Assembly (NCBI GenBank): GCA_946699065.1 | Contig: CAMPDV010000004.1 | Span: 1,364,001-1,428,000, forward strand | Source of the DNA: Loxodes magnus | Taxonomy: Eukaryota; Ciliophora; Karyorelictea; Loxodida; Loxodidae | DNA: 64,000 nucleotides | Direction of reading: 5' to 3' | Shown: positions 43,703 through 45,118 of the stretch, in pieces | Layout: every line of letters starts with the position of its first letter | How positions within the stretch are numbered: the stretch's first letter is position 1 | Translations under genes and position numbers: made by a program | The notes under the pieces: generated by a model | What the model was told of the DNA's origin: nothing | What the model saw: only the letters and a program-made list of their open reading frames with translations | Database searches by the model: none

Positions 43703-45118
43703 ATGTCTAAGGTAAGAGAAAGCAAATTCCGACATGTTTATGGTGAATAGCATAAAACGAGATTCGAAGATATTAAAGTAACTACTGCAACTTTGGAAAG
43801 TTGTATGGTGAAGTCAAATGGAGAGTAGGCTGCTATTTCTTGGTAATCAGGTGGTGGATGCTTATTAATTGTTAATTTGCATAACCCATGCAGATTAGGA
43901 GCAACTCCTCCTCTAATTCGAGGCCATTCTGGAGCTATTTTGGATGCTGAATTTTATCCATTTTTCGACAGATGAATATTAACTGCAAGTGAAGATACAA
44001 CCCTTAAATTATGGGAACTTCCTGAAGGTGGAATGACAGAAGATATCAAAGAACCTAAATTAGTTCTCAATGGACATTCAAAGAAAGTTCCATTATGCTA
44101 GTTTTCTCAATCAGTTGCTTTCCTAGCTGCATCAGCTTCTTATGATAATACTTTGAAACTCTGGGATCTTGAAAAATAAGAAATTATTAGTTCTTTCGAA
44201 TAAGAATAGCCATTTTCTTTAGACATGAATATAGTTTCTTCCCATGTTGTTTCTACATGCAGAGATAAGTTGATTCGAATATGGGATGCTAGATAAACTT
44301 CTTCAGCATAAACTTGGTAAGGCCATGAAGGAGGAAAATCATAGAAAGTTGTATGGGCTGGATAAAATTTAGTAACAACTGGGTTTAACAAACAAGCTAC
44401 TAGATAGCTTTTCTTTTGGGATCCAAAAAATACTGCAGAACCAGTCCAGTAAATGAATGTTGACAATTAATCGGGTGTTTTGTTTCCATTCTTTGATAAT
44501 GATTTATCAATTCTTTATCTTGTCGGTAAAGGAGATGGAAATATTCGCTATTACGAACTTGACAATGGATAATTCTATTTCTTGGAAGCTTACAAAAGCA
44601 CTTTACCAGCTAAAGGAATTGGGTTTATTCCAAAAAAATCATGTAACACCCTTATAAATGAGATTGGAAGAGCTCTCAAATTAACATCCACTGAATTATA
44701 TTAAGTAAGCTTTATAGTTCCGCGAAAAGCAGAAGGATATCATGCTGATATTTATCCTGACACTTTTGATTCAATTTCTGCACAAACAATTAATGAATGA
44801 AAGACAGGAAATAATAAAGAACCTTAAAGGTTTTCGATGACTAAAGTATACTAAGCTTAATCTTCTGGAAATGCTTAGCAAAACTCCACGAAGCCTAGCT
44901 TGTAACCCACTAACTAGAGCGCTGTTTCAATTCAAAAGGAATTAGATGAAGCTTTGATTACAATTGAAGATTTGAAAAGGTAATTAGAAGAGACTAGAAA
45001 TGAAATAGACTTATTGAGATAGGAAAACGAAGAGCTTAAGAGCAAGTAATAATTGAATTAAACTACATCTTTATAACATTTTAGCATTAATAAATTTTAC
45101 TTTTCTTTTTAATAATGA
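43703..45118 (+). CDS. Coronin (actin-binding WD40 protein)
   Basis: About 470 residues. The N-terminus [19 protein letters not shown] matches the coronin signature (FRHVFG...). WD40 blades follow: [76 protein letters not shown], then the coronin extension ([29 protein letters not shown]) and a C-terminal coiled coil [20 protein letters not shown] for oligomerisation. Coronins bind F-actin and Arp2/3. TGA 43973 and 44798 occupy conserved positions (the residue after FFDR at the start of a blade strand, and the residue before the KTGNN turn) and must be Trp. The frame ends TAA TAA TGA at 45110-45118; which codon terminates is unclear. The next gene overlaps it here. Confidence 0.95.

Follow-up and report, generated by a model that had tools for sequence, protein, structure and literature searches.

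Coding frames in this stretch of DNA contain TAA, TAG and TGA, which raises the question of what each of these codons means here and how the genes end. The window, that is, the whole 64-kb stretch analysed, covers positions 1,364,001-1,428,000 of contig CAMPDV010000004.1, in an assembly of 705,730,643 bases and 7,843 contigs from Loxodes magnus, which belongs to the class Karyorelictea. As far as can be judged from the sequence, the window and the eRF1 genes of the same assembly show TAA and TAG read as glutamine, TGA used as a sense codon within genes (for tryptophan or at least an aromatic residue), TGA ending three genes, and altered motif residues in both eRF1 genes. The reading we favour, with a probability of roughly 95%, is that the sequence, very probably macronuclear DNA of L. 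magnus, uses the nuclear code already known from karyorelicts (NCBI table 27).

The main codon count was based on 11 Pfam-matched frames with a total of 6,830 codons. These contained 318 TAA and 134 TAG codons next to 132 CAA and 41 CAG codons, and 30 TGG codons next to 47 TGA codons, some of which may be out of frame since the count was made on unspliced sequence. In-frame TGA codons were present in all 11 frames, with 1 to 12 in each. As a chance comparison, TGA counts in the five remaining frames of these stretches were 133, 271, 102, 108 and 89. Set against these 89-271 occurrences, the 47 in the coding frame indicate that TGA is kept low but not excluded: it is held below the chance level, yet present. 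Three other approaches were abandoned. A count based on a codon-usage HMM (31 coding segments, 85 TGA) was discarded because some stretches were out of frame behind introns, as in UTP11; an intron HMM run strand by strand was set aside because it admitted antisense shadows; and a likelihood ranking of the 64 codons as stops or starts was uninformative, with TGA placed 4th and TAA 8th as stop and ATG only 7th as start. Inspection by eye also revealed similar wording (e.g. GKRxKRLLKxI) in the translations of 29656-30480 (minus strand), 35017-35824 (plus strand) and 47125-47910 (minus strand), which look as if they were copies of one interspersed repeat.

Table 1. Positions of the genes, frames and codons discussed in the text; coordinates refer to the window except for the eRF1 paralogues, which are given by locus.
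Feature	Position	Strand	Remarks
START-like domain frame	248..3688	+	8 TGA, no TGG; START reported only with TGA=Trp
Kinesin frame	6643..8766	-	14 TAA/TAG within the aligned part of the motor domain
MAP2K-like kinase frame	11508..12416	-	one TGA, opposite Phe in MEK1 chains
TPR-repeat protein frame	32853..34697	-	5 TGA
DUF229 protein with GT18-like C-terminal stretch	37307-39565	-	12 TGA in 753 codons
Coronin coding frame to end of coiled coil	43703..45046	+	25 TAA/TAG, 2 TGA
In-frame TGA of coronin, non-Trp column	43973..43975	+	opposite V, V, V, V, I in the 5 chains shown
In-frame TGA of coronin, Trp column of coronins	44798..44800	+	W in 5/5 chains shown
Coronin tail	45047..45118	+	TAATAA, 21 more codons, TGA at 45116; G+C 10/72 bases
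Hydrolase frame	52465-53562	-	
In-frame TGA of hydrolase	53143..53145	-	precedes GRSMG motif
UTP11 gene	57755..58526	+	exons 57755-57908, 57934-58115, 58136-58438, 58461-58523; stop TGA 58524-58526
eRF1 paralogues L001 and L002	1075-2385 in each locus		contig C196, about 35 kb apart

Gene ends were considered for those genes in which the C-terminus could be placed independently of the stop codon. In UTP11, three GT..AG introns were inferred from the sequence, at 57909-57933 (25 nt), 58116-58135 (20 nt) and 58439-58460 (22 nt), the third chosen as the model that preserves the conserved end without an internal TGA. The unspliced frame from 57755 is lost past the first exon and scores 56.8 bits over 37 positions of the Pfam model, while the spliced gene would encode 234 residues with no internal TGA and matches Utp11 at 142.8 bits over model positions 1-240 of 242, the terminal TGA following immediately upon the final matched residues. 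The inferred intron lengths agree with the intron sizes given in excerpts from the L. magnus genome paper (PMC11441545). Since splicing removes its TGA codons, UTP11 provides no evidence for TGA=Trp. In both eRF1 genes codon 436 is followed by TGA, a few residues from where human eRF1 ends; a few codons past it the paralogues differ by one base and lose their common frame. Thus, all three genes with an independently placed C-terminus, spliced UTP11 and a pair of eRF1 paralogues that do not count as separate cases, end at TGA and, judged by these gene models, TGA is a stop as well as a sense codon. For 8 gene ends, the last 40 codons ahead of the chosen TGA contained none and codons 41-60 contained 2, an apparent depletion of TGA that is partly built in by choosing the first TGA near the end of the model.

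The frame of the coronin gene (43703-45118), in which TGA is found at 43973, 44798 and 45116, offers the only hint of another kind of gene end. Here, TAATAA at 45047 meets the frame directly where the coiled coil stops, and the segment 45047-45118 could represent the 3' UTR if TAA is the stop, a hidden intron, or an AT-rich tail of the ordinary kind. If TAA is not purely sense in Loxodes, a few genes such as coronin would terminate at TAA close to the end of the mRNA, which we regard as unlikely. A full Condylostoma-type code (table 28), in which each of the three codons is sense within genes and can also end them, is in our judgement very unlikely. It would accommodate the TAATAA and the 21 AT-rich codons that separate it from the TGA, and excerpts from PMC4967479 report that C. 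magnum uses UAA, UAG and UGA as stops, but it has against it the uniform use of TGA at the three gene ends above as well as the statement, in excerpts from PMC11441545, that UGA is the only stop in Loxodes.

Under the karyorelict code, TGA should also be translated inside genes, and its use as a sense codon is supported by matches that continue on both sides of it. With all stops masked as X, the coronin frame matched Coronin-1C at 258.7 bits over residues 4-433, and the kinesin, MAP2K-like kinase, hydrolase, SDR and SIR2 frames matched relatives through the masked positions; the coronin query gave no match in a phage collection. A preliminary description of the window had listed several frames as continuous only by recoding, and this applies to coronin, kinesin, the MAP2K-like kinase, SDR and the hydrolase, which match relatives past the masked stops, and not to UTP11, which is spliced and lacks internal TGA. 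It could be argued that TGA is solely a stop and that every in-frame TGA results from a short intron left unspliced or from a frame error: the TGAs of UTP11 are exactly such splicing artefacts, and introns of 20-25 nt are hard to spot. However, the TGAs at 43973 and 44798 in coronin and those in the kinase, the hydrolase, SIR2 and the TPR repeats are located inside matched domains with matches in the same frame on both sides, which makes this explanation hardly credible.

To assign a residue to TGA, we compared 9 TGA columns, 6 with PDB relatives and 3 in the TPR array with the array's own repeats, aligned by eye. Only one of the nine, coronin 44798, was a Trp column, and three others were mostly aromatic or Leu. 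The kinase TGA was opposite Phe in all four chains, although these rows represent four constructs of MEK1 and are not independent. The hydrolase TGA was opposite Ile and Val in the two PDB relatives found, and the two SIR2 columns contained Lys or Pro at one and Gln at the other, with three SIR2 rows being SIRT6 and so likewise not independent. Two of the three TPR columns were mostly Tyr, Leu or Phe in the other repeats. BLOSUM sums over the nine columns were 6.4 for Tyr, 2.2 for Phe, -0.7 for Met and -1.0 for Trp, so that the test would point to an aromatic residue, with Trp not in first place. The TGA codons that had been singled out as conserved tryptophans fared unevenly: the claim was borne out at coronin 44798 and not confirmed at coronin 43973, where the relatives have Val or Ile, or for the hydrolase codon, where the domain scores for Hydrolase_4 showed no preference for Trp either.

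We also scored 8 window proteins from the 11 frames against Pfam under six readings of TGA (W, Y, L, C, R and X). The TGAs of kinesin, VWA and SDR are outside the matched domain, and these three were omitted for that reason. The hand-added sums over 11 families were 859.2 for W, 842.1 for Y, 823.7 for L, 814.4 for C, 809.1 for X and 809.0 for R, where an unlisted family scored 0, which favours Trp via START. This domain was listed only with TGA=W, at 20.6 bits, below the Pfam cut-off of 22, and without it the sums were 842.1 for Y, 838.6 for W and 823.7 for L. The WD40_4 domain of coronin scored 54.7 bits with W, 49.7 with Y and 43.7-46.4 with the remaining four readings, and Laminin_G_3 27.7 with W and 19.0-23.1 with other readings. 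Scores with W and Y were 216.9 and 217.9 for TPR_1, 93.7 and 101.6 for DUF229, and 28.1 and 32.5 for GT18. All other families were near-neutral to the reading; Abhydrolase_1 scored 41.5 with W, 41.1 with L and 39.5 with Y. Searches against the PDB returned zero matches for the MGAT2-like gene, a best E-value of 0.25 to unrelated TPR proteins for the START stretch, and only a match of E 0.15 at the GT18-like tail for the DUF229 gene.

Tyrosine or another aromatic residue in place of tryptophan would fit the first rank of Tyr in the nine-column test and in the Pfam sum without START, and the preference of DUF229 and GT18 for Tyr. Against this, TGA at coronin 44798 stands opposite Trp in every chain shown, START, WD40_4 and Laminin_G_3 favour Trp, TGG is scarce relative to TGA (30 versus 47), and UGA is Trp in the karyorelict code according to excerpts from PMC11441545 and PMC4967479; taken together, these observations leave a non-Trp reading of TGA extremely improbable. 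The closeness of W and Y in the Pfam sums and the outcome of the column test mean that the assignment to Trp leans partly on the published code. From the window data alone, Trp is the likeliest meaning of TGA, moderately supported and short of proof. For the proposal TGA=Trp in the preliminary description, the sense use, coronin 44798 and the total Pfam score are in agreement, while the single Trp column in nine and the lead of Tyr in the column test and without START are not.

The meaning of TAA and TAG was examined in 34 columns, 20 from eRF1 (aligned with human eRF1) and 14 from kinesin (aligned with 1goj). Gln was found opposite 14 of these codons, Glu opposite 5 and other residues opposite 15, and the BLOSUM62 sums were 71 for Gln, 45 for Glu and 17 for Lys. 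Among the columns with Gln are those in the TLQGN, GGQSAL and SQEGSQF stretches of eRF1. The two eRF1 paralogues have TAA versus CAA at codon 69 and TAA versus TAG at codon 242, and differ at 60 of 436 codons, 41 of which are synonymous when TAA and TAG are read as Gln. As inferred from these alignments, the assignment of TAA and TAG to Gln is firm, in line with what had been proposed from the letters of the window. The probability that they instead encode Glu, as in a Blastocrithidia-type code, is negligible: Glu ranks second in the BLOSUM sums, but trails Gln both in these (45 versus 71) and in the number of columns (5 versus 14 of 34), and the exchange of TAA for CAA at codon 69 disfavours it.

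The TASNIKS and YLCDNKF motifs of eRF1 read the stop codon. Relative to the human protein, both Loxodes copies carry RAQNIKS (with TAA read as Gln) in place of TASNIKS, FLCENTF in place of YLCDNKF, and Ala instead of the Ser of NIKSRVNRLS; internal TGA is absent from both genes. A search for eRF1 in the same assembly had been suggested as a check on the recoding, and these two paralogues with their altered motifs are its outcome. The eRF1_2 domain has one more, lower-scoring match (81.6 bits) at locus L003 on contig C2, which is possibly pelota/Dom34. Within the 64-kb window, ARAGORN and Rfam both gave no hits. A genome search with the tRNA family gave 63 matches; the 30 of these loci that were scanned held only tRNA-Lys(TTT) and some tRNA-Ala(TGC). 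The tRNA-Lys(TTT) genes are numerous and almost identical; some form tandem arrays with even spacing, and some adjoin tRNA-Ala(TGC) (loci L004-L033; contigs C64, C78, C103, C158 and others).

In the interpretation we favour, TAA and TAG are read as Gln, and TGA as Trp within genes and as a stop at gene ends. Published work suggests that UAA and UAG would be decoded by their own cognate glutamine tRNAs, and that eRF1 would win at UGA only close to the mRNA end. Excerpts from PMC4967479, which includes ribosome profiling in Condylostoma, propose that closeness to the transcript end lets eRF1 win. A tRNA-Trp(CCA) with a 4-bp stem is cited for Loxodes in excerpts from PMC13092985 and PMC12005148.

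The code described here has close counterparts. In excerpts from PMC11441545, the macronuclear genome of L. magnus is assigned NCBI table 27, with UGA as Trp and sole stop; we likewise find TGA as sense and stop together with short introns, and no difference from what these excerpts describe. The karyorelict-type code named in the preliminary description agrees with this published code, although the description left out TGA as a stop. The karyorelict Parduczia, another genus, has the same code in excerpts from PMC4967479, with UAA=Q, UAG=Q, UGA=W and UGA where stops are expected. For Condylostoma magnum (table 28), the same excerpts report three codons that are sense, as here, but there UAA and UAG are also stops, which is hinted at here only by the coronin end. 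Excerpts from PMC12005148 describe Amoebophrya sp. ex Karlodinium veneficum, a dinoflagellate and not a ciliate, with three ambiguous stops that are sense and also recognised by eRF1, and with a 4-bp-stem tRNA-Trp like the one cited for Loxodes. Blastocrithidia shares the reassignment of all three stops and UGA=Trp in excerpts from PMC12153298, but has UAR=Glu and a UAA stop there, versus TAR=Gln and a TGA stop here.

The recoding is real but already published, for karyorelicts from 2016 onwards and for the L. magnus genome in 2024. The preliminary description is partly confirmed: its main finding holds, its evidence was weaker than claimed and its detail overstated. A stretch of 64 kb was enough to settle TAA/TAG=Gln and does not on its own amount to proof of TGA=Trp. 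In such a genome, introns of 20-25 nt create false in-frame TGAs that inflate counts made before splicing. A code that lacks a dedicated stop codon is a striking piece of biology, and if some Loxodes genes do end at TAA, tables 27 and 28 would differ by degree within one genome, and not in kind.
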